From Opitutaceae bacterium (lineage in GTDB: Bacteria; Verrucomicrobiota; Verrucomicrobiia; Opitutales; Opitutaceae), in the NCBI GenBank assembly GCA_030648295.1, contig JAUSID010000228.1:1-49011 (forward strand): 49,011 bases of DNA, given 5' to 3'. Made by a program: the position numbers and the translations under genes. Under the pieces are notes generated by a model. The model worked only from the letters and a program-made list of their open reading frames with translations, was not told the origin of the DNA and did no database searches. Position 1 is the stretch's first letter. Each line of letters opens with the position of its first letter. Below, piece by piece: positions 5,650-16,719 of the stretch.

Positions 5650-8214
5650 ATGAAACTACCCGCACCCCTCAAAGCACTGGTGGGCGGCCTGCTAGTGTTG
5701 AGTCCTGCCTTGGGCCACGCTCAGACTACGGCGACCACCGACCCCAGCAAATCGGATCCGATCCAGATGGAGGCCTTCAGTGTGACCGAACTGAAGGCGT
5801 TCTCGGATCAGGCGATCCCCGGCAAGACTCCGGTGGCATTCACGGAGCTGGGCAAACAGACAATTGCGGAGGAGCTTGGCTCCCGCGACATCCCGCTGGT
5901 GCTGAACGCCGGTCCTTCCGTGTTTTCCACCACCGACAGTGGCGGGGCGGGCGACGCGCGCGTCAACGTGCGCGGCTTCAATCAGCGCAACGTCTCCATT
6001 CTGATCAACGGGGTGCCGACCAACGACATCGAGAACGGTTGGTTGTATTGGTCAAACTGGGACGGGTTGGGGGACGTCAGCACGGCGATCCAGCTCCAGC
6101 GCGGCCTGAGCAACGTGGTGCTGCCGACCCCCTCGATCGGCGGAACGATGAACATCATCTCGGATCCCGCGGAAGCCCGCCGCGGGTTTTCCCTCAAGGC
6201 GGAGGTGGGCAGTGACGACTTCTACAAGTTCACGGGCGTCTACAGCACCGGGCTGATCGATGACCGGGTGGCCATCACGGTGGGTGGCGTCGCCAAGGAG
6301 GGAGAAGGGTACGTGCAGGGCACGTGGACCAAGGGATATGGCTACTATCTGGCCGCCCTCTGGAAAATGAGTCCCCGGAATCGGTTCGAGTTTTTCTGGA
6401 TCGGGGCGCCGCAGCGTCATGGTCAGCGCACGTTTGCCTCGAATATCGCGGCCTATGACACCGGCTACGCGCGGAGCCTCGGATACAGTGAGGCGGAAAT
6501 CGCGGCGGCGCTGGCCGTCGGGCCCGTGAATGCCGGACAGGATTTCAACCCCAATTATGCGCCGGTGAGCCCGAGCTACGCCGGCCAGCAGTATTATTGG
6601 GAGGAGCTTCACCCACGCGAGAAAGCCGGGTTCCTGAACGAGCGGGAAAACTACTTCCATAAACCGCAGGCAAATCTGAACTGGTACGCGAACCTGAGCA
6701 GCCAGCTGAAGGTGACGACTGTGTTTTACTATTCGGGAGGCCGTGGGGGCGGCGCCGGGACGCTTAACAACGGGTCGAGCAGTGATGCGTTCGGCCGTTA
6801 CCCGAACAGCGATCCCCGCTGGGGCAGCAACATCAACTGGGACGCGACGATCGCGAGCAACGCGGGATCGAGAAACGCCCGTGGCGGCGCGAAGACCCCG
6901 GGCCGGTCGCTCGGCATCCTGCGCAATAGTGTCAACAACCAGGATCAATTCGGCATCGTGTCGAAGGCGGTGTACAAGCTGAGCGACGTCCTGACGCTCA
7001 CGGGCGGGTTCGACTGGCGGACCGCGGAAATCCATCACTTCCGCGAGGTGCGCGACCTGTTGGGTGGCGAGTACTACCTCCCGACGACGGCCCAAGTCAG
7101 CGAGTTTTTGAGCACGGGCGCGAGCACGCAGCTGCGACTCGGCGACAAAGTCGATTACAACAACACGAACACCGTCGATTGGCTGGGCACGTTCGCGCTG
7201 GCGCAATATGAGCAAGGCCCTGTCACCGCGTTCGGCGTGTACGGCTATTCGGTCATCGACTATTCGTACGTCGATCACTTCCGGCGCGCGGCACCCGGAA
7301 GCAATCAGGCGATGTCATTGGACTCCGGGTGGATCGACGGCCATCAAATCAAGGGCGGCCTCCGCTACGCGTTCAACGATGGCTTCAGCGCCTTCGTGAA
7401 CGCCGGCTGGGTCTCCAAGGTGCCGATCTTCGATGGCGCGATCAACGACATCGTGGGACAGAAGGTCGAAACGGAGAACGAGACGTTCAAGTCCGCGGAA
7501 GCGGGATTCCGCTACGTGACGCGCGACCAGAAGTTCAACGTCAACGCGAACTACTACTACACCGAGTGGCGTGAGCGCACGGTTTCGCTCGTGAACGAAC
7601 AGGCGGATACGATCACGTACCTGCGCGGCATCAACTCGAACTACGCTGGCGTCGAACTCGAGTCGGCGTGGCAGCCGAACACGTGGATCCGTTTCGACGC
7701 CGCCGCCTCGATTGGAAACTGGTACTACTTGAGCGATGTTCCGGCTGAGACCTATCGCATCAGCAGTGGCGACCAGGTGCCCACCAGCGCCGTTCTTTAT
7801 ATATCGAGCCTGAAGGTCGGTGATGCGCCGCAGACCCAGTACGCCTACGCGGTGACGGCATTTCCGACGAAGGGATTATCCGTGAAGTTGCAGGGCCGTT
7901 CCTACGCGCGGTATTGGTCCGATTACCTGCCCGACAGCCGCCAAAGTGCGAGCGATCGCGGCCAGCCGTGGAGGATTCCAAACTATTCGGTTTTCGATTT
8001 GCACGTGAATTACCGCCTCCCGCTAGGCGACCGCTCGAACGTCAGCCTGTTCGCCCACGTGTTCAACTTGTTCGACGAGACGTATGTGTCGGACGCGACG
8101 GACAACAGTTCGTTCGAGGCAATCCGAACTGCTCCGTCGCACAGTGCGCAGCGTGCCGAGGTGTTCCTCGCCCCGCCGCTCAAGTTCAATCTGGGGGCAA
8201 GGATATTGTTCTGA
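5650..8214 (+). CDS. TonB-dependent outer-membrane receptor (854 aa)
   Basis: An outer-membrane beta-barrel for energised uptake of an unknown ligand. A signal peptide (residues 1-25, cleavage near GHAQT) is followed by a short linker with MEAFSV and a plug domain: TELGKQTIAEELGSRDIPLV, then DARVNVRGFNQRNVSILING, then GGTMNIIS. The long barrel of aromatic, alternating strands ends in Phe (LKFNLGARILF), as outer-membrane proteins do. It lies divergent from the ECF sigma gene, a pairing that could mean control by it, but the usual anti-sigma is absent. Size fits a typical carbohydrate or siderophore receptor. No SusD-like gene adjoins it. The ligand cannot be told from sequence. Confidence 0.93.
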   Translation: MKLPAPLKALVGGLLVLSPALGHAQTTATTDPSKSDPIQMEAFSVTELKAFSDQAIPGKTPVAFTELGKQTIAEELGSRDIPLVLNAGPSVFSTTDSGGAGDARVNVRGFNQRNVSILINGVPTNDIENGWLYWSNWDGLGDVSTAIQLQRGLSNVVLPTPSIGGTMNIISDPAEARRGFSLKAEVGSDDFYKFTGVYSTGLIDDRVAITVGGVAKEGEGYVQGTWTKGYGYYLAALWKMSPRNRFEFFWIGAPQRHGQRTFASNIAAYDTGYARSLGYSEAEIAAALAVGPVNAGQDFNPNYAPVSPSYAGQQYYWEELHPREKAGFLNERENYFHKPQANLNWYANLSSQLKVTTVFYYSGGRGGGAGTLNNGSSSDAFGRYPNSDPRWGSNINWDATIASNAGSRNARGGAKTPGRSLGILRNSVNNQDQFGIVSKAVYKLSDVLTLTGGFDWRTAEIHHFREVRDLLGGEYYLPTTAQVSEFLSTGASTQLRLGDKVDYNNTNTVDWLGTFALAQYEQGPVTAFGVYGYSVIDYSYVDHFRRAAPGSNQAMSLDSGWIDGHQIKGGLRYAFNDGFSAFVNAGWVSKVPIFDGAINDIVGQKVETENETFKSAEAGFRYVTRDQKFNVNANYYYTEWRERTVSLVNEQADTITYLRGINSNYAGVELESAWQPNTWIRFDAAASIGNWYYLSDVPAETYRISSGDQVPTSAVLYISSLKVGDAPQTQYAYAVTAFPTKGLSVKLQGRSYARYWSDYLPDSRQSASDRGQPWRIPNYSVFDLHVNYRLPLGDRSNVSLFAHVFNLFDETYVSDATDNSSFEAIRTAPSHSAQRAEVFLAPPLKFNLGARILF

Positions 8215-8295: not shown

Positions 8296-10776
8296 TCAGG
8301 GATCACGCAGCGCCCGCAACCGCTCCAGATTCCGTCGCGCCTCGGCATAATCGGGCTTCAGCGCCAGCGCGCGATCAAACTCACGCCGCGCCTCGTCCCA
8401 GTGTTCCTGCCGCGCATAGGCGACGCCGAGGTTGTGGTGCGACTCGGCGTCGTTAGGCGCCAGCCGGATCGCCTCCTTGAAGTGCGTCCCAGCCTCGGCC
8501 ACGCGATCGAGATCGAGCAGCGCATTCCCGAGCTTGTGGTGCGCATTGGCGTGGTTCGGCTCGAGCCTGAGCGCCATTTCGTAATGTTCGATCGACTCGG
8601 CAGCGCGGCGCGCGGCAGCCAGCGCATTGCCGATTCCATAATGCGCCTCGACGGATTTTGGATTCGCTGCGAGCACGCGCCGATACTCGGTTTCCGCTTC
8701 CTGCGTTCTTCCCGCCAGCAGCAATCCGCCGGCAAACGTCGTCCGGAACTCCGCGTCGTCGGGGCGCAGTCGCAGGGCTTCGCGGTAATGTCGGAACGCG
8801 TCGTCCGGGCGTTGCGCGCGGAGATACGCGGAGCCGAGATTGAAGTGCGCGTCCGCGTGTTCCGGCTGAACTTTCAACGTGGCCTCGTATCGCGCGATGG
8901 CTTCGTCCACCCGGCCGGTGCGGAAAAGAGCCACGCCATAGTTGTACTGGTATTGCGGCTCGGCGGGTTTCAGCCGCACCGCCTCTCCATAATGCGCCAG
9001 CGCTTCATCTGTGCGCCGCAGCTGGCCGAGCACAATGGCAAGGTTGTTGTGGGTTCGCGCTTCGTTCGGCATCAGTCGCAGCGAGAGCTGAAAACTGCGA
9101 ACGGCCTCCTCGAGCTGCCCCGCCTGCATTTGCGTGAGCCCGAGATTGTAGTGGTAGGTCGATTCATCGGGCCGCAGCCGAATCGACTCGGCGCGGTGGC
9201 GAAGCGCGAGATCGTGGCGGCCGACTTCCGCCCACGCTTCGGCCAGGCCCTCGTGCGCGCGCGGATTGTCCGGTCGCTTCGCGACCGTGTCGCTCCACAG
9301 GGCGAAATGGCTTCCGTAGTCGTGGTTGCGGCGGACGGTAAGAATGGCGAACGCGACCACCATCATGATTGCGAGGGCCATGGCCGTGCGTTGCCGGCGT
9401 GGGAGCAAACGTTCAACCAGCAACACCGCGCCCGCCAGCACGGCGGCGAGGGGCAAATACATCCGGTGCTCGACGATCATCTGGATGGTTCCCGGCGTGA
9501 GGGAGGTTGGCGCGAGGATGAGAAAAATTGCCGCGCCGAGGAAACCGGTCGTCCGCCACCCCGGACTTGCGGCCTGCCCCCGCGGTCCAAGCCCGGCAGC
9601 CGTGAGTCCCAGCAGAGGCAGGATGAGCGCCGCATAGGGGACGATATCGCCACTGCGCTGGACCCAGAATGTCCCGTATTCAAAGATTAGCGACGACGGC
9701 CACGCGGCCTGGGCGAGGTAATGCGCGAGCGCCTTGAATTGGGTCAGGCCGTACGCCCACCACGGCAGGCCGACGCCGAGCCCCACGGTGCCGCCCCGGT
9801 TTCCCCCCGTGCTGAACACGAGGAAAGCCAGTACCAGCCAGGTCGCCGCCAGCCCCGCATAATAGCGCCAGCGCCGGCGGAGGGCGGCACGAAATTGCCC
9901 GGCGCAAAAGGTGCGATCGTAGAGCAGCACGAGTAGCGGCGCCGTTGCCATGACCTCCTTGGTCGCCATGCCGAGCACGCACGCACCGACACTCGCGGCC
10001 AGCCAGGCGGCGGGCCTGGATCCCGTTTCGCGCTTGTCACGTAATACGTTAAAATCAGCCCGGGCGACGGGCCCGATCGATCTCCCGCGCGGTGCAATCG
10101 CGCCATCCGACTCCACGCCGCGGATGAAGGTGTAGAGCGTGAGCAGGTAAAAAAATCCCATCAACGACTCGGCGCGCTGGACGGTATAGGTCACGGCTTG
10201 GGTTTGCAGCGGGTGTAGCGCCCACCACGCGGCGATCACGAGCGCGATGCCGTCGCGACTCCGAGATGCCTGTAGCAGGGCATCTGCTTGCAGACGCCGT
10301 GGGATGTACTCGGAATCCGCCGCGGCGCCCGCCAGCGGACCCCCTGCGGCCGACGGATCGAATGGGTCACGGCCCGCTGATTGCCCGATCCCGGCTGATC
10401 TGGCGCTGAAATCGCGCCAGGTCCGCCGCACAATTCCAAAAAGCAGCAGGGCGTTCGCCGCATGGACGAGCCCATTGACGACGTGGTAACTCCAAACTGC
10501 CGTGCCGCTGATCGCGTAGTTCAACGCGAACGACAGATTCAGCAGCGGCCGGCCGCTGACGGTGAGACCGCCGTCGGCGTGGGGCAGCACCACGTCACTC
10601 AGCGGCCAGAGTTTCCGAATCGTGGAGTTGTCCGGGATCGCGAGTACGTCGTCATAAACGAAGGGCGCGTGGAGCGTGTTGCTGTACGCGAGGAGAGTCG
10701 CGACGACGAGGAGGACCGGCCCCACCCAAAGGAGCAACGTAGGCCGGTGGCCGGATGGCGCGGAAGACTCGTGCAT
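8296..10776 (-). CDS. multi-pass membrane protein with C-terminal TPR repeats (TMTC/DUF1736-like)
   Basis: An 826-residue protein with about ten hydrophobic segments in residues 20-490, then nine and a half TPR units of 34 residues to the end (for example ESTYHYNLGLTQMQAGQLEEAV). The N-terminal part has the protein O-mannosyltransferase-like layout seen in TMTC proteins: YDDVLAIPDN, SGRPLLNLSFALNY, YHVVNGLVHAANALLLF, and TYTVQRAESLMGFFYLL. A glycosyltransferase role is inferred only. I chose the ATG at 10776 because the open frame above it, up to 11367, translates repeat DNA into unnatural protein. Two loops carry repeat-like inserts in frame, at 10021-10056 and 10261-10312. Confidence 0.85.
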   Translation of the reverse strand: MHESSAPSGHRPTLLLWVGPVLLVVATLLAYSNTLHAPFVYDDVLAIPDNSTIRKLWPLSDVVLPHADGGLTVSGRPLLNLSFALNYAISGTAVWSYHVVNGLVHAANALLLFGIVRRTWRDFSARSAGIGQSAGRDPFDPSAAGGPLAGAAADSEYIPRRLQADALLQASRSRDGIALVIAAWWALHPLQTQAVTYTVQRAESLMGFFYLLTLYTFIRGVESDGAIAPRGRSIGPVARADFNVLRDKRETGSRPAAWLAASVGACVLGMATKEVMATAPLLVLLYDRTFCAGQFRAALRRRWRYYAGLAATWLVLAFLVFSTGGNRGGTVGLGVGLPWWAYGLTQFKALAHYLAQAAWPSSLIFEYGTFWVQRSGDIVPYAALILPLLGLTAAGLGPRGQAASPGWRTTGFLGAAIFLILAPTSLTPGTIQMIVEHRMYLPLAAVLAGAVLLVERLLPRRQRTAMALAIMMVVAFAILTVRRNHDYGSHFALWSDTVAKRPDNPRAHEGLAEAWAEVGRHDLALRHRAESIRLRPDESTYHYNLGLTQMQAGQLEEAVRSFQLSLRLMPNEARTHNNLAIVLGQLRRTDEALAHYGEAVRLKPAEPQYQYNYGVALFRTGRVDEAIARYEATLKVQPEHADAHFNLGSAYLRAQRPDDAFRHYREALRLRPDDAEFRTTFAGGLLLAGRTQEAETEYRRVLAANPKSVEAHYGIGNALAAARRAAESIEHYEMALRLEPNHANAHHKLGNALLDLDRVAEAGTHFKEAIRLAPNDAESHHNLGVAYARQEHWDEARREFDRALALKPDYAEARRNLERLRALRDP
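10261..10312. repeat. palindromic repeat inside the TPR membrane-protein gene
   Basis: CCGAG and CTCGG bound a stretch whose centre is the near-palindrome GCATCTGC-TT-GCAGACGC. Its translation (EYIPRRLQADALLQASRSRD) falls in a hydrophilic loop between two membrane segments and does not look like the rest of the family domain. It resembles the in-frame repeat in the SUI1-like gene. Confidence 0.5.
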
Positions 10777-10863
10777 CTGCCCTAGGTTGTGTCGCCGCGG
10801 CGGGCAGGTGCAAGCGAGCGGCCCCAGCCAGACGAACCGCAAATAGACCCCCAACTTCTTCAC

Positions 10864-10890
10864 CGCGAATGGACGCGAATGGACGCGAAT
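10864..10890. repeat. CGCGAATGGA tandem repeat
   Basis: Three copies of CGCGAAT spaced by GGA (10-nt period) occur 88 bases upstream of the TPR-protein start. Diverged relatives are at 19681-19709 and, inverted, at 19801-19830. Confidence 0.85.
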
Positions 10891-11300
10891 CAAGACCAGA
10901 CGAGGCAAGGTGGCGGGCCGACGCGTTAATATGGCGCGGTTTTTGCGCGGCGAGGAGGAAGGCTCAGGGCTTTCGATGCGGGCAACCGGGCACATTCGAT
11001 CGGATGGTGTTTTGCGCGTCTCCGTTGAACGAAAGTACTCTGTCTCCAAAAACTCACGACGTACAAAGATGGGTGATTTCCGAGGAAAGGGACCGCCGCC
11101 GCCGGACCCTGTCGCAAAATCGCAAATACATGGCTTGCGGGAATATTGAGCTCCAAAACAGAAGTTCACTCGTCCGCCCTGCGGACGGCTTCGGAAGCGG
11201 GATCGGCCATGATTTCCGAGGAGAGATTTGACGTTGCGGCGGCGAATTACCACGCCGGGCTCGGCAAGCAAAATCAGCGGGAAAAATTCACGACTTCCTG

Positions 11301-11381
11301 ACCACAAACCGATTGACGAACCATGCGGCGACTCCCATGGGTTGTGGTCGCCGCACCCACGGACCACATCCTGTTGTGGTC
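11301..11381. promoter_or_regulatory. GACCACA / TGTGGTC operator-like inverted repeats upstream of nrdB
   Basis: The 7-mer GACCACA occurs near 11300 and at 11362, and its complement TGTGGTC near 11345 and at 11375-11381; 11362-11381 forms GACCACA-N6-TGTGGTC. An 8-bp hairpin (GCGGCGAC with GTCGCCGC, 11325-11354) overlaps the cluster. The spacing and symmetry suggest a dimeric regulator, 120-200 bases before nrdB. The words do not match the NrdR box I know. Confidence 0.5.
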
Positions 11382-11503: not shown

Positions 11504-12589
11504 ATGCAAAAAACGTTTCAGGTCGGTGCCAAGACGTTCGTTCTCGATCAAGCCAAAGCCGAAGCCGCTTTCGCCGCCAAAAAGGTCATCAACGGTCGCG
11601 AGACCATGACGTTCAACCTTCTCCCGCTGAAATACCAGTGGGCGTACGATTTGTATCGCACGATGAAGGCCAACCACTGGGAGCCGGAGGACATCCCGAT
11701 GGGCAAGGACATCGAGCAGTGGCGCGACGAGAAGGTCGTGTCCGATGTCGAGCGCTGGATCATCCGGATGGGCATCGGGTACTTCTCCGCCGCCGAAGGC
11801 ATCGTCGGCGACAACATCCAGCATGTGGTCCGCGAACTCGTCACCGCGCCCGAGCTCAAGCTCATCCTCGGCCGGCACGCGCACGAGGAGAACATCCACG
11901 CCGACTCGCTGCTGTACATGATCGCGTCGCTCGGGATCAATCCGCACGAGTGCGAGGCGATGTTCGAGGACGTGCCGACGATCGTGCGCAAGAATGAATT
12001 CGTCACCCGCATTTCCCGTGCGTTGCGACGTGACCTCGATCTCACGCAGCCCGAAAACAAGAAGCTGCTCGCCAAGAACATTTTTGTCTTCGGTCAGTGC
12101 ATGGAGGGCACGCAGTTCTACGGGCTGTTCGGCATGGTGCTCTCGCTCTACCGGCAGAACAAGTTTCCCGGCATCGGCCAGATGTTCCGCTATACCCTCC
12201 GCGACGAGTCCAACCACATCGAGGTGTTCCGGAATCTCTTCATGGATTTGGTGGACGAGAATCGCGAAATCTGGACGACCGAGTTCAAGGAGGAACTGCG
12301 CGAGCTCATGCGCGAGGCGATCCAGCTGGAAAAGGAGTTCATCCGCGACTGCCTGCCGGTGAATTCGATCGGGCTCAGCGCCGATGACTTTTTGACCTAC
12401 ATCGATTTCATCGCCGACCGCCGGCTCGAGAGCTGCGGTCTGGCCCCTCTGTCGCCGGGCGTGAAGAACCCGCTGCCGTGGCTGGCCGAGATGATGGACA
12501 TCAAGAAGGAGCAGAACTTCTTCGAGGGCCGCGTCACCGAATACCAGAAGTCGTCCTCGCTGAACGTCGCCCGCGACGACGAGCTCTAA
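11504..12589 (+). CDS. nrdB: ribonucleotide reductase small subunit (R2), class Ic-like, Leu at radical position
   Basis: A 361-residue ferritin-fold R2 subunit. It would hold the metal cofactor that starts radical chemistry in NrdA, making deoxyribonucleotides aerobically. Ligands are visible: E98 (SAAEGIVGDN), E129 and H132 (HEENIHADSLLYM), E201 (CMEGTQFYG), E235 and H238 (RDESNHIE). Against the Chlamydia R2 (recalled, ungapped nearby) the first ligand is Glu as in class Ic, and the residue matching E. coli Tyr122 and Chlamydia Phe127 is Leu136. A tyrosyl radical there is therefore impossible, and a metal-based oxidant (Mn/Fe type) is inferred. The C-terminal EYQ...SSLNV region keeps Tyr347 for radical transfer. 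nrdA follows by 237 bases. Confidence 0.95.
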   Translation: MQKTFQVGAKTFVLDQAKAEAAFAAKKVINGRETMTFNLLPLKYQWAYDLYRTMKANHWEPEDIPMGKDIEQWRDEKVVSDVERWIIRMGIGYFSAAEGIVGDNIQHVVRELVTAPELKLILGRHAHEENIHADSLLYMIASLGINPHECEAMFEDVPTIVRKNEFVTRISRALRRDLDLTQPENKKLLAKNIFVFGQCMEGTQFYGLFGMVLSLYRQNKFPGIGQMFRYTLRDESNHIEVFRNLFMDLVDENREIWTTEFKEELRELMREAIQLEKEFIRDCLPVNSIGLSADDFLTYIDFIADRRLESCGLAPLSPGVKNPLPWLAEMMDIKKEQNFFEGRVTEYQKSSSLNVARDDEL

Positions 12590-12826: not shown

Positions 12827-15800
12827 ATGAGCAATCCTCCGTCCCTCGCCCACGACCTCGCGCTCAAACGCACCGTCCACACGCCTGTCGATCAGAAACC
12901 CCATTACGCCTGGCGCGACGTCCTCACCGGCGAAACCATCGAGCTTCCGGCGATCATCCTGCTCTGTCCGCACGGCGAGGAACGGTTCGCGCTCAGCGAG
13001 GTCGCCGACACGCTCGGCAAGGCGCTGACGAACGTGCATCTCGCCAAGGGGGAGAAGGACATTTTCAACGACACCAACCGGAACTGGGTCGCCGGCATCT
13101 GCCGCGAGGTCGCGGCCAACCTGCGGGCGCTTGCGCGCAAGCAGTCGCCGCTGCGCATTTCGCTGAACGATCTCTACGAGTTGATCGAGAAGACGCTCGT
13201 CGACAACAACGCGTACTTCGTGGCGAAGAGCCTGCTCATGAATCGCGCCCGCAAAATCGCGGTCGACCGCGATGCCGCCGCGCAATCCACCCTGCGCGTC
13301 ATCCGTCGCAACAACCAGGTCGTTCCCTGGAGCGAACAGAAGGTCGAAATTGCCGTGCGCAAGACGTTCCTGTCGCTGCAGCGCGACTCGGCGCCGGCCA
13401 TCGCCATCACGCGCACCGTCTCCGAGCGCGTGCACTCGTCGAAGCAGTCGTTCGTCCACATCGAGGAAATCCAGGACATGGTGCAGGAGGAGCTGATGAA
13501 GGCGGGCCACTACAAGGTGGCCGAGGCCTACATCCTCTTCCGCGCCCAACGGGCCGCCGCGCGTGACGCCGGTTTCGAAACCGCGGTGACGGAAAACACC
13601 GACGTCGCCGTCGCGCCGGTCCTGGCTCCCGGCCAGGCCTCGCTCATCGTGGTCAAGAAGGCCGACGGCACGAATTCGTTCTGGGATGGCGCCGACCTGC
13701 GGAAGCGGATCGAATTTGCCCGCATCAACCTCGAACTCTGCCTGTCGAACGACGAAATCGAAACGGAGCTTCGTCGCTCGATCTACGACCAGATTTCGCA
13801 AAAGGATCTCGACGCGACGATCATCCTCAACTCGAAGACGCTGATCGAGCGCGATGCCGACTTTGCGAAATTCGCCGGCCGGATCCAGCTGACCTACATC
13901 TACGAGGAGGTGCTCGGCTGGGACATCATGTGCGACGGGATCGGCGCGTTGAAGACGGCGCATCAGCGCGCCTTCCGGAAATACCTCGAGCACGGCGTTG
14001 CGATCCAGCGGCTGAATCCGCGGCTGCTCGACTACGATCTGGCGAAGCTCGGTGCCGCACTCGATCCGTCGTCGGACCTCGAGTTCGACTTCCTCGGCAT
14101 CCAGACGCTCTTCGATCGGTACCTGATCATCGACAAGACGCGCAAGCCGTCGCGCCGGATCGAGACGCCGCAGTTCTTCTGGATGCGCGTGGCCATGGGC
14201 CTGATGCTCGACGAGAAGGGCGACCGCGAGTCCTACGTCACCGGCCTCTATGAGTTGTACAAGTCGCGCCGGTTCTGCAGCAGCACGCCGACGCTGTTCA
14301 ACTCGGGGACGCTGCATTCGCAGCTGTCATCCTGCTATCTCTACTACGTCGATGATTCGCTCGAGAGCATCATGTTGCGCGGCATCGCCGACAACGCGTT
14401 CCTCGCCAAGTGGGCGGGTGGGCTCGGCGGCTCGTGGACGGCGGTGCGCGGCACCGGTGCGCACATCCAGGGCACGAACGGCGAGAGCCAGGGCGTGATC
14501 CCGTTCCTCAAGCTCCACAACGATCAGCTCGTGGCGGTGAACCAGGGCGGCAAGCGCAAGGGCTCCGGCTGCGCGTATCTGGAAACCTGGCACAATGACA
14601 TCTTCGAGTTTCTCGAGCTGCGCAAGAACACGGGCGACGACCGCCGCCGCACGCACGACATGAACACGGCGAACTGGATTCCCGACCTGTTCATGAAGCG
14701 GATGGAGGCGCGCCAGCACTGGACGCTTTTCCGTTCGAACCAGGTCAAGGATCTCCATGAGCTGTACGGTGTCGCTTTCGAGCAGCGTTACCTTGAATAC
14801 GAGAAGCTCGCGGACGAGGGGAAGATCGTGGGCCAGAAGATCGAGGCGCTGGAACTCTGGAAGAAAATGCTCTCGATGCTCTTCGAGACGGGGCATCCGT
14901 GGATCACGTTCAAGGACGCGTGCAACCTGCGTTCGCCGCAGGATCACGTCGGCGTCATCCACTCGTCGAATCTCTGCACCGAGATCACGCTCAACACGTC
15001 CAACGACGAGACCGCGGTGTGCAATCTGGGCTCGGTGATTCTCGAGACGCACCTGAAGCCCGACGGCTCACTCGATCACGCCAAGCTCCGCGACACGATT
15101 CAGATCGCGGTCCGCGCGCTCGACAACGTGATCGACATCAACTTCTACCCGACGATCGCGGCGAAGACCTCGAACCTGCGGCACCGGCCGATCGGGCTCG
15201 GAGTGATGGGGCTTGCGCACTCGCTGTACCTGCGCGGCCACGCGTTCGCCTCGCCGGAGGCGGTCGAGTTCAACGACGAGGCGATGGAGGCGATTGCGTA
15301 CTACGCGTACGAGGCCAGCTCCGATTTGGCGGCCGAACGCGGCGCGTACTCGAGTTACAAGGGCTCGAAATGGGACCGCGGGCTGCTGCCCCAGGACACG
15401 CTCGACCTGCTGGAGAAGGAGCGGGGAGTGCCGGTTGAGGTTCCGCGCGGCGGCCGGATGGATTGGACGCCGGTGCGCGCCAAGATCGCGAAGCACGGCA
15501 TGCGGAATTCCAACTGCCTCGCCATCGCACCGACCGCGACGATCTCGAACATCACCGCGACTTCGCCCTGCATCGAGCCCACGTACAAGAATCTGTTCGT
15601 GAAATCAAATCTCTCGGGCGAGTTCATCGTCCTGAATCCATTCCTGGTGAAGGACCTCAAGGCGCGCGGGCTGTGGGATCAGGACATGATCGACAACCTG
15701 AAGTACTTCGACGGCGAGTTGAAGGACATCGAGCGGATCCCCGCCGACCTGAAGGCAAAGTACCTCACCGCGTTCGATATCGACCAGAAGTGGATCGTCG

Positions 15801-16153
15801 ACGCGGCGGCGCGGCGGCAGAAGTGGATCGATCAGGCGCAGTCGGTGAACCTCTGGATCAAGACGCCTGACCTGAAGACGCTCTCGCACATGTATCGGCA
15901 GGCCTGGCACGTCGGGCTCAAGACGACGTACTACCTGCGGTCGCTGGGCGCCTCGAACATCGAGAAGGCGACGGTATCGGTGAAGAAGGAGGTGCGCGGC
16001 GCGGTGAAGGAAGGGGCCGACGGCGGCCAGAACAGTGGCGACGCGGGTGGCTCCCACGCGCCGAAGCTGAAAAGCGTTTACACCGAGGCCGAAAAGACTG
16101 CGTGCTCAATTGAAGCAATGAAGAACGGCGGGACATGCGAGGCATGCCAGTGA
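12827..16153 (+). CDS. nrdA: ribonucleotide reductase large subunit (R1), multi-cone class Ic type
   Basis: A 1108-residue catalytic subunit that reduces ribonucleoside diphosphates. The N-terminus has a degenerate ATP-cone-like block (about 30-140), a canonical ATP cone (about 158-245: IRRNNQVVPWSEQKVEIAV), and a third cone-like block to about 345, before the ten-strand barrel. Redox cysteines C503 (SQLSSCYLYY) and C732 (AVCNLGS), the thiyl C717 with N715 and E719 (NLCTEITLN), the substrate motif PTATISNITATSPCIEP, and the C-terminal CEACQ pair (C1104, C1107) are all present. Length and cone layout match Chlamydia NrdA, not the 760-residue E. coli form. The ATG follows a pyrimidine-rich leader without a clear Shine-Dalgarno sequence. 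Confidence 0.96.
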   Translation: MSNPPSLAHDLALKRTVHTPVDQKPHYAWRDVLTGETIELPAIILLCPHGEERFALSEVADTLGKALTNVHLAKGEKDIFNDTNRNWVAGICREVAANLRALARKQSPLRISLNDLYELIEKTLVDNNAYFVAKSLLMNRARKIAVDRDAAAQSTLRVIRRNNQVVPWSEQKVEIAVRKTFLSLQRDSAPAIAITRTVSERVHSSKQSFVHIEEIQDMVQEELMKAGHYKVAEAYILFRAQRAAARDAGFETAVTENTDVAVAPVLAPGQASLIVVKKADGTNSFWDGADLRKRIEFARINLELCLSNDEIETELRRSIYDQISQKDLDATIILNSKTLIERDADFAKFAGRIQLTYIYEEVLGWDIMCDGIGALKTAHQRAFRKYLEHGVAIQRLNPRLLDYDLAKLGAALDPSSDLEFDFLGIQTLFDRYLIIDKTRKPSRRIETPQFFWMRVAMGLMLDEKGDRESYVTGLYELYKSRRFCSSTPTLFNSGTLHSQLSSCYLYYVDDSLESIMLRGIADNAFLAKWAGGLGGSWTAVRGTGAHIQGTNGESQGVIPFLKLHNDQLVAVNQGGKRKGSGCAYLETWHNDIFEFLELRKNTGDDRRRTHDMNTANWIPDLFMKRMEARQHWTLFRSNQVKDLHELYGVAFEQRYLEYEKLADEGKIVGQKIEALELWKKMLSMLFETGHPWITFKDACNLRSPQDHVGVIHSSNLCTEITLNTSNDETAVCNLGSVILETHLKPDGSLDHAKLRDTIQIAVRALDNVIDINFYPTIAAKTSNLRHRPIGLGVMGLAHSLYLRGHAFASPEAVEFNDEAMEAIAYYAYEASSDLAAERGAYSSYKGSKWDRGLLPQDTLDLLEKERGVPVEVPRGGRMDWTPVRAKIAKHGMRNSNCLAIAPTATISNITATSPCIEPTYKNLFVKSNLSGEFIVLNPFLVKDLKARGLWDQDMIDNLKYFDGELKDIERIPADLKAKYLTAFDIDQKWIVDAAARRQKWIDQAQSVNLWIKTPDLKTLSHMYRQAWHVGLKTTYYLRSLGASNIEKATVSVKKEVRGAVKEGADGGQNSGDAGGSHAPKLKSVYTEAEKTACSIEAMKNGGTCEACQ

Positions 16154-16203: not shown

Positions 16204-16719
16204 ATGAAACCTCCGCGATGCGTCATAATCGCCGGGCCAAATGGCGCGGGCAAGACAACGTTTGCGACTGATTTCCTCCCGCGCGAGCGCGGCATTCGAA
16301 ATTTCGTCAATGCCGACCTGATTGCTGCAGGCCTTTCACCACTGGCGCCGCATTTGGCGCATCCGGCCGCAGCTCGACTTTTCCTGCGCGAAATTGACCG
16401 ATTCGTCGCTGCTCGTGAGGATTTCGGATTCGAATCCACGCTCAGTGGGCAGACATATGCGGGTCGGATTCGCAACTGGAGGGAAGGAGGTTATCGCGTG
16501 GAGATCGTATTCTTGTGGCTCCCATCACCCGAACTGGCGAAGTCGCGCGTTTCCGCTCGCGTTCGCCAAGGCGGACACGATGTCCCGGCCGAAGACATCG
16601 CCCGCCGCTACGAGCGCGGTTGGAGAAATTTCCAGCAAATTTACGCGGGACTTGCAGACGCGTGGAGCGTGTTCGATAATTCCGTTCTACCAATTCGTCT
16701 CCTGAAGCAATTTCCATGA
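16204..16719 (+). CDS. zeta-toxin-like P-loop kinase
   Basis: A 171-residue single-domain NTPase. Walker A is GPNGAGKTT at residues 11-19; FVNADLIAAGLSP and FESTLSG match the substrate-binding and acidic motifs of the zeta-toxin/AAA_33 family, whose best-known members phosphorylate UDP-N-acetylglucosamine. Arg-rich helices (SRVSARVRQGGHDVPAEDIARRYERGW) fit the lid. It is the first gene of an apparent accessory block and overlaps the next small gene by 4 bases (ATGA), so the two are probably co-translated. Whether it is toxic or only a kinase cannot be told. No epsilon-type antitoxin is present, but the overlapping small protein may fill that place. Confidence 0.85.
   Translation: MKPPRCVIIAGPNGAGKTTFATDFLPRERGIRNFVNADLIAAGLSPLAPHLAHPAAARLFLREIDRFVAAREDFGFESTLSGQTYAGRIRNWREGGYRVEIVFLWLPSPELAKSRVSARVRQGGHDVPAEDIARRYERGWRNFQQIYAGLADAWSVFDNSVLPIRLLKQFP

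Follow-up and report, generated by a model that had tools for sequence, protein, structure and literature searches.

A class Ic-like R2 protein of ribonucleotide reductase with leucine at the radical-tyrosine position, in an Opitutaceae bacterium and its relatives

The window analyzed here is a 49,011-nucleotide stretch of contig JAUSID010000228.1 from an Opitutaceae bacterium. It contains a complete open reading frame, nrdB, that starts with ATG and encodes 361 residues of an R2 protein of class I ribonucleotide reductase (RNR). The protein matches Pfam Ribonuc_red_sm (PF00268) at 224 bits (cut-off 33.6) and the NCBIfam NrdB model PRK07209 at 334.9 bits (cut-off 309). The best 120 of 3539 database matches are 88–94% identical to it, and 111 of these 120 have a length of 361 or 362 residues. 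An Opitutaceae-like host had been proposed from the sequence alone; indeed, the best match, at 94% identity, is named Opitutaceae bacterium, and several others among those 120 carry the name Opitutaceae.

The gene for the R1 subunit, nrdA, starts 237 bases 3' of nrdB. Its closest solved relative is 5im3 (994 bits), which we take to be NrdA of the class Ia enzyme of Pseudomonas aeruginosa; the R2 of that enzyme keeps the radical tyrosine. The window NrdA contains the motifs NLCTE (at 715), AVCNLG (at 730) and YYLR (at 1035) and a C-terminal CxxC; presumably, these are the catalytic-cysteine region, the partner cysteine, the radical-transfer tyrosine pair and the tail cysteines, respectively. 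The initial annotation described this NrdA as “multi-cone”, which holds for one clear ATP-cone (residues 157–243) and is doubtful beyond it: a second cone is weak (E 0.076, under the Pfam cut-off), and a count of three clear cones was rejected. Just 3' of nrdA lies a gene for a small kinase-like protein (16204–16719, forward strand) with matches to Zeta_toxin (40.8 bits, cut-off 22.3) and AAA_33. Upstream of nrdB are genes for a TPR-repeat protein (8296–11367, reverse strand) and for a protein with a TonB-dependent receptor plug domain (5650–8214, forward strand). No regulatory RNA was found in the window at Rfam gathering scores.

Table 1. RNR genes and key residues at the locus (window coordinates, except where a locus handle is given). 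Sources marked “partial” are cited from passages of their text.
Feature	Position	Strand	Basis
nrdB, 361-aa R2 of class I ribonucleotide reductase, class Ic-like Leu form	11504..12589	+	ORF, profiles, homologues
Trp59, equivalent of E. coli W48 / Chlamydia W51 (electron relay)	11678..11680	+	alignment; role from PMC4118035 (partial)
Glu98, first metal ligand	11795..11797	+	alignment; PMC4118035 (partial)
Glu129 and His132, metal ligands (E-x-x-H)	11888..11899	+	motif, alignment
Leu136 (CTG), radical-tyrosine position (E. coli Y122, Chlamydia F127)	11909..11911	+	alignment
Tyr138, opposite Chlamydia Tyr129, off the radical position	11915..11917	+	alignment
Glu201, metal ligand	12104..12106	+	alignment
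Tyr230 (Chlamydia Y222) and Thr231 (E. coli Ile234 position)	12191..12196	+	alignment; pocket role from PMC5623701 (partial)
Glu235 and His238, metal ligands	12206..12217	+	alignment
Tyr347 of C-terminal tail, inter-subunit radical-transfer position	12542..12544	+	alignment
nrdA, 1108-aa R1 subunit	12827..16153	+	profiles; closest solved relative 5im3
R2', second R2 between nrdB and nrdA, Cephaloticoccus primus / C. capnophilus	L063:9447-10529; L040:7896-8993	+; -	locus reading

The EENIH motif of the window R2 begins at residue 128, and the residues four and six places after ligand His132 are therefore Leu136 and Tyr138. In the alignment, Leu136 lies opposite the Phe of Chlamydia R2c (1syy) and opposite the Tyr introduced in 2ani, the Chlamydia F127Y mutant; Tyr138 lies opposite the Tyr two residues further on. 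All six metal ligands are kept (E98, E129, H132, E201, E235 and H238). The first of these is Asp in classes Ia and Ib and Glu in class Ic (PMC4118035; this and the other papers given by PMC number are cited from passages of their text). The initial annotation had placed leucine four residues after His132 and had named Glu98 as the first ligand. Both assignments are borne out by the alignment to Chlamydia R2c, and Glu98, Leu136 and Tyr138 occur together in 121 of 121 rows (the window R2 plus the best 120 of 3539 matches), which rules out a sequencing error or chance at codon 136.

Where does such a protein belong among the class I enzymes? It has no Tyr at the radical position (Leu136 vs. Phe127 of 1syy), it carries Trp59 and Tyr230 at the positions of the class Ic relay pair W51 and Y222, and it has both a C-terminal Tyr (Tyr347) and a cognate NrdA. 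On a narrow definition of class Ic, which demands Phe at the radical position, it departs by its Leu. An assignment to class Ia or Ib, with an Asp first ligand and a radical Tyr, was rejected given Glu98 and Leu136, as was one to class Id, which pairs Tyr with Glu. Chlamydia trachomatis R2c (1syy / 4m1i / 4d8f) is the top match by both sequence and predicted fold. The identity to the characterized Chlamydia protein is about 37–38%, and Chlamydia R2c entries took ranks 1–13 in a PDB search with the predicted structure (mean pLDDT 86, pTM 0.84; low in the tail, 333–361); we count this predicted fold, model though it is, with the observations. The two proteins share the six ligands with Glu first, the missing radical Tyr, the C-terminal Tyr and equivalents of Trp51, Tyr129 and Tyr222. 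Unlike Chlamydia R2c, which has Phe, Ile and Phe at the respective places, the window R2 has Leu136, Thr231 at the Ile234 position and Gln204. The earlier proposal of a class Ic-like Leu R2 beside NrdA is thus upheld by Glu98, by the alignment of Leu136 with Phe127 and by the adjacent nrdA; sequence and fold model together support a class Ic-like R2 that would be free of a tyrosyl radical.

The Leu form had also been regarded as an unusual variant, and here the data disagree: it is fixed in a large clade of the phylum, and as early as 2010 Hogbom had described R2c sequences with Leu, Ile or Val where others have Phe (PMC3824934, partial text). Our phylum sample comprised 288 genomes, 90 of them with a match to the window R2; all rows to E 9.2e-33 were read, bar fragment G125:C4, together with four more distant ones. 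A Leu R2 was found in 60 of the 288 genomes, with Tyr138 in 59 (the window's among them) and His138 in one. The remaining rows were 11 Phe forms and otherwise combined Asp98 with Tyr136. Leu136 is widespread in the phylum, not rare. A search from the His138 type returned Leu136 with His138 in 120 of 120 rows (best 120 of 7903 matches). As for individual genomes, G215 has two Leu R2 copies on separate contigs (L045 and L052), and the sole other genome sampled from the window's genus, G010, gave no match to the window R2.

Beyond the phylum, up to 30 fetched loci were read per sample, and phyla were inferred from the titles of the center records. Two Leu loci came from the sample around a Planctomycetales record (199 genomes; L229 and L230) and two from that around a Pseudonocardia record (198 genomes; L259 and L258); these four are Leu-Tyr R2s in other phyla. 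A binning error is unlikely for L259 because its locus, on contig C1, lies past the 2.5 Mb mark in a genome of 3.4 Mb. In the Chlamydiota sample, 87 of 92 genomes had a match, and all 30 loci read there were Phe forms; the 201 genomes sampled around a “Thermomicrobiales” record (up to 30 loci read) gave no Leu R2 besides the record's own.

The Leu form often belongs to the only RNR detected. Of the 60 Leu genomes, 59 encode an R1 barrel no more than 8 kb away from the R2. Exactly one PF02867 match is present in 43 of them, 38 of which are without a match to the class III profile NRDD; NRDD is present in 11 of the 60. In 38 of 60 genomes, ranging from about 0.9 to 9.1 Mb, no RNR other than that of the Leu R2 was detected (one R1/class II barrel, no class III match), and the Leu R2 should therefore support growth there. 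The window's own genome is a draft of 9.12 Mb in 294 contigs (96.6% complete, contamination 4.0). It has one match to PF00268 (R2) and one to PF02867 (R1 barrel), and a profile search of this draft assembly for PF13597 (NRDD, class III) gave none; thus, as far as the assembly shows, the window R2 supports all ribonucleotide reduction.

Phylogeny was examined with a careful tree of 75 rows, from which columns 98, 136, 138, 230 and 231 were excluded and which omits L087, L076, L083, L336 and a random selection of 20 Phe rows, and with a quick tree (columns 98, 136, 138 and 230 excluded) whose outgroup sits on long branches. In the careful tree, the Leu-Tyr group joins the Leu-His group in one clade (100/99) that includes the window R2; the Leu clade has an SH-aLRT of 87 in the quick tree. 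This single, well-supported Leu clade with Tyr138 and His138 branches is an addition of the present work. A second, independent Leu136 occurs inside the Phe group, in L159 (JADLGF010000437.1, titled as a Thermomicrobiales MAG; L224 is the same protein reached twice), and there it is not accompanied by Thr231. IMG/VR viral contigs supplied 33 further R2 loci with Glu98 and Ile or Val at 136 (L182-L206, L208-L212 and L214-L216), and the nine such rows in the careful tree form a clade of their own (100/99).

The Tyr/Asp proteins nearest to the window R2 branch together with the Phe rows, among the Glu98 rows, and “class Ic” may for that reason not be one lineage. Two Phe/Glu R2s, L220 (from a Phyllobacterium zundukense plasmid) and L265, group with the Tyr/Asp rows (100/100); in them, positions 98 and 136 have switched as a pair. 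The fewest Tyr/non-Tyr changes on the careful tree number two, and the placements imply, on this tree, that the paired 98/136 switch happened more than once or was reversed. A topology with all Glu98 rows as one clade was not rejected (p-AU 0.405), nor was one uniting the Leu and Ile/Val rows (p-AU 0.519). R2c was polyphyletic in earlier work (PMC3824934, partial text); polyphyly itself is thus not new here.

Among 315 distinct R2 rows, Asp98 is accompanied by Tyr136 in 65 of 65, while Glu98 is found with Phe (154), Leu (68), Ile (22), Val (5) or Met (1) and never with Tyr; the other five ligands are kept in 249 of the 249 Phe, Leu, Ile and Val rows. This rule of Asp with Tyr and Glu with non-Tyr is limited to the class Ic neighborhood because the rows were drawn by similarity to the window R2 or A2. 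Class Id, outside that neighborhood, pairs Tyr with Glu (PMC8463856, partial text).

Differences between the forms extend beyond residue 136. Over residues 20–354, the Phe group can be distinguished from both Leu groups at 35 positions (residue 136 is one), where conservation exceeds 90% in each group; Thr231 and Gln204 are among them. That scan used a Phe set of 139 rows (>380 bits, Tyr or His at 138) and a near-Tyr set of 18 rows (>380 bits, Tyr138). All 177 distinct Leu rows and 124 of the 139 Phe rows have Ala directly before the first ligand, as the window R2 does with Ala97; changing this residue alters Mn/Fe use or loading in related R2 scaffolds (PMC7239806, partial text).

The most informative of the 35 is position 231, which corresponds to E. 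coli Ile234 because it lies four residues before ligand Glu235, by the same count. Phe212, Phe208 and Ile234 form a hydrophobic dioxygen pocket (PMC5623701, partial text), and both pocket Phe residues are kept in the window R2 (F205 and F209). We recounted residue 231 without the above limits, on rows distinct over residues 30–330. Thr231 is present in 64 of 65 Leu-Tyr rows (the exception, L159, has Ile), in 112 of 112 Leu-His rows (counting a second R2 described below), in all 27 Ile/Val rows and in the single Glu98/Met136 row. It is absent from 153 Phe rows (Ile 139, Val 9, Leu 5) and from 65 Tyr rows (Ile 41, Val 18, Ser 5, one gap). Thr231 at the Ile234 position, common to the Leu clade and the viral-contig Ile/Val proteins and absent from the Phe and Tyr forms, is a further addition of this study. 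On these counts, we hypothesize that Thr231 marks a remodeling of the pocket that accompanied an aliphatic residue 136. The pattern may reflect a single event, since the rows are related. Repeated co-evolution of the two positions is not established: the Leu and Ile/Val rows may be one clade, the independent Leu of L159 keeps Ile, and the Glu98/Met136 row has Thr.

In two Cephaloticoccus species, a second R2 (R2') lies between nrdB and nrdA. Read residue by residue in the two named copies, R2' keeps the six ligands, Leu136, Trp59, Thr231 and the tail Tyr, has His138 and Asn230 in place of Tyr138 and Tyr230, and has a shortened tail motif. The copies are 83% identical (300/361) with a dN/dS of 0.11, which indicates constraint; the value for the ordinary R2 and for NrdA of the same two species is 0.075. 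Among 120 database matches listed for R2', five are at least 81% identical and the rest are at most 60% identical. An R2' within the nrd operon that retains the ligands and is without Tyr138 and Tyr230 is likewise reported here as an addition.

How, then, might an R2 with leucine at this position work? In R2c, O2 reacts with a site-1 Mn and a site-2 Fe, which yields Mn(IV)/Fe(IV); one electron then enters via Y222 and W51, the assembly relay, and the resulting Mn(IV)/Fe(III) replaces the tyrosyl radical (PMC8463856 and PMC4118035, partial texts). We consider it likely that the window R2 is a Chlamydia-like class Ic protein with an oxidant stored on its metals, most likely Mn/Fe, and with Leu136 as an inert filler; the metals, their oxidation states and the electron route are what we infer. 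Its dimetal site, in which site 1 most likely binds Mn and site 2 Fe, would react with O2, Tyr230 and Trp59 would deliver the extra electron during assembly, and the oxidizing equivalent would be held as Mn(IV)/Fe(III) rather than on a tyrosine. During turnover, the oxidant would travel by way of Trp59 and Tyr347 in the C-terminal tail and so reach, in the adjacent NrdA, the tyrosine pair and the catalytic cysteine. Leu136 would merely fill the old tyrosine pocket, in this clade alongside Thr231. Because 35 positions separate the Leu groups from the Phe group, assigning them the same chemistry as Chlamydia is an extrapolation.

A metal-centered oxidant could also be built from a different metal pair, two Mn ions (the class Id arrangement) or two Fe ions; Leu136 and Thr231 would then tune the site. 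First-sphere ligands alone do not fix the metals (PMC4118035, partial text), and the Leu-clade pocket differs from that of Chlamydia in Thr231 and Gln204. We nevertheless judge another pair unlikely: the nearest neighbors by sequence and fold are the Chlamydia Mn/Fe enzymes, the class Id pairing is Tyr with Glu rather than Leu with Glu (PMC8463856, partial text), and no NrdI was noticed beside nrdB on reading the window's list of open reading frames. That another tyrosine, chiefly Tyr138, bears a stable radical is very improbable. Tyr138 is a near neighbor of the site, two residues away, and all 121 rows of its own clade have it (window R2 plus best 120 of 3539); however, the alignment puts it opposite Chlamydia Tyr129, so the Leu reading survives this check. 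The residue is also kept in 133 of 139 Phe rows (>380 bits, Tyr or His at 138) and stands beside Tyr136 in 18 of 18 near-Tyr rows, a set chosen for Tyr138 (>380 bits); it therefore need not be a replacement. In the sister Leu-His group, moreover, position 138 is His throughout (120 of 120; best 120 of 7903). By these comparisons of aligned residues, Tyr138 does not appear to be a relocated radical site.

Could the protein serve outside RNR altogether, as an R2-like ligand-binding oxidase (R2lox) or a non-catalytic partner? R2lox is also without the radical Tyr (PMC3824934, partial text) and has Glu first (PMC4118035, partial text), but it is described as lacking a conserved C-terminal Tyr (PMC3824934, partial text). 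The window R2 has Tyr347, lies in an nrd operon next to nrdA and is the sole R2 found in its genome, and its best NCBIfam R2lox model scores 51 bits against a cut-off of 194. We therefore rejected R2lox, and regard any non-reductase role as scarcely credible. Returning to the metal-only reading, we entertain one extension of it that seems rather unlikely: the Leu clade, perhaps with the viral Ile/Val R2s, may be a separately remodeled “aliphatic pocket” type of metal-only class I RNR, in which the Ile-to-Thr change at the Ile234 position would alter O2 activation or metal choice relative to Chlamydia, and R2 and R2' of Cephaloticoccus would divide the labor. The viral-contig proteins resemble the window R2 in Glu98, an aliphatic residue 136 and Thr231 (27 of 27 distinct rows); they differ in forming their own clade, whose union with the Leu clade is neither demonstrated nor rejected.

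The Leu/Ile/Val R2c set of PMC3824934 (partial text) and the window R2 share a redox-inert residue at the radical position. Class O ferritin-like proteins, with Phe or Leu there (PMC9531940, partial text), are comparable in the same respect; they belong to a different RNR lineage. No chemical study of a Leu-form R2 was found among the matches listed from open-licence literature, and no solved Leu-form structure appeared among the six sequences read at position 136, of 64 PDB matches (three Phe, one F127Y mutant, one Tyr, and 9dws, also Tyr). The Leu variant has thus already been mentioned in print; its chemistry seems to be unstudied.

RNR cofactor classes have been distinguished by a handful of residues close to the metals. 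The Leu clade, its His138 sister group and their shared Thr231 constitute a natural mutant series for the role of the old tyrosine site in metal choice and oxidant stability, and in R2', which has the metal site and is without the Y222 relay, nature offers the equivalent of a laboratory mutant. Since the Leu R2 belongs to the sole detected RNR of 38 of 60 genomes spanning about 0.9–9.1 Mb, a metal-only oxidant would need to serve quite ordinary bacteria.
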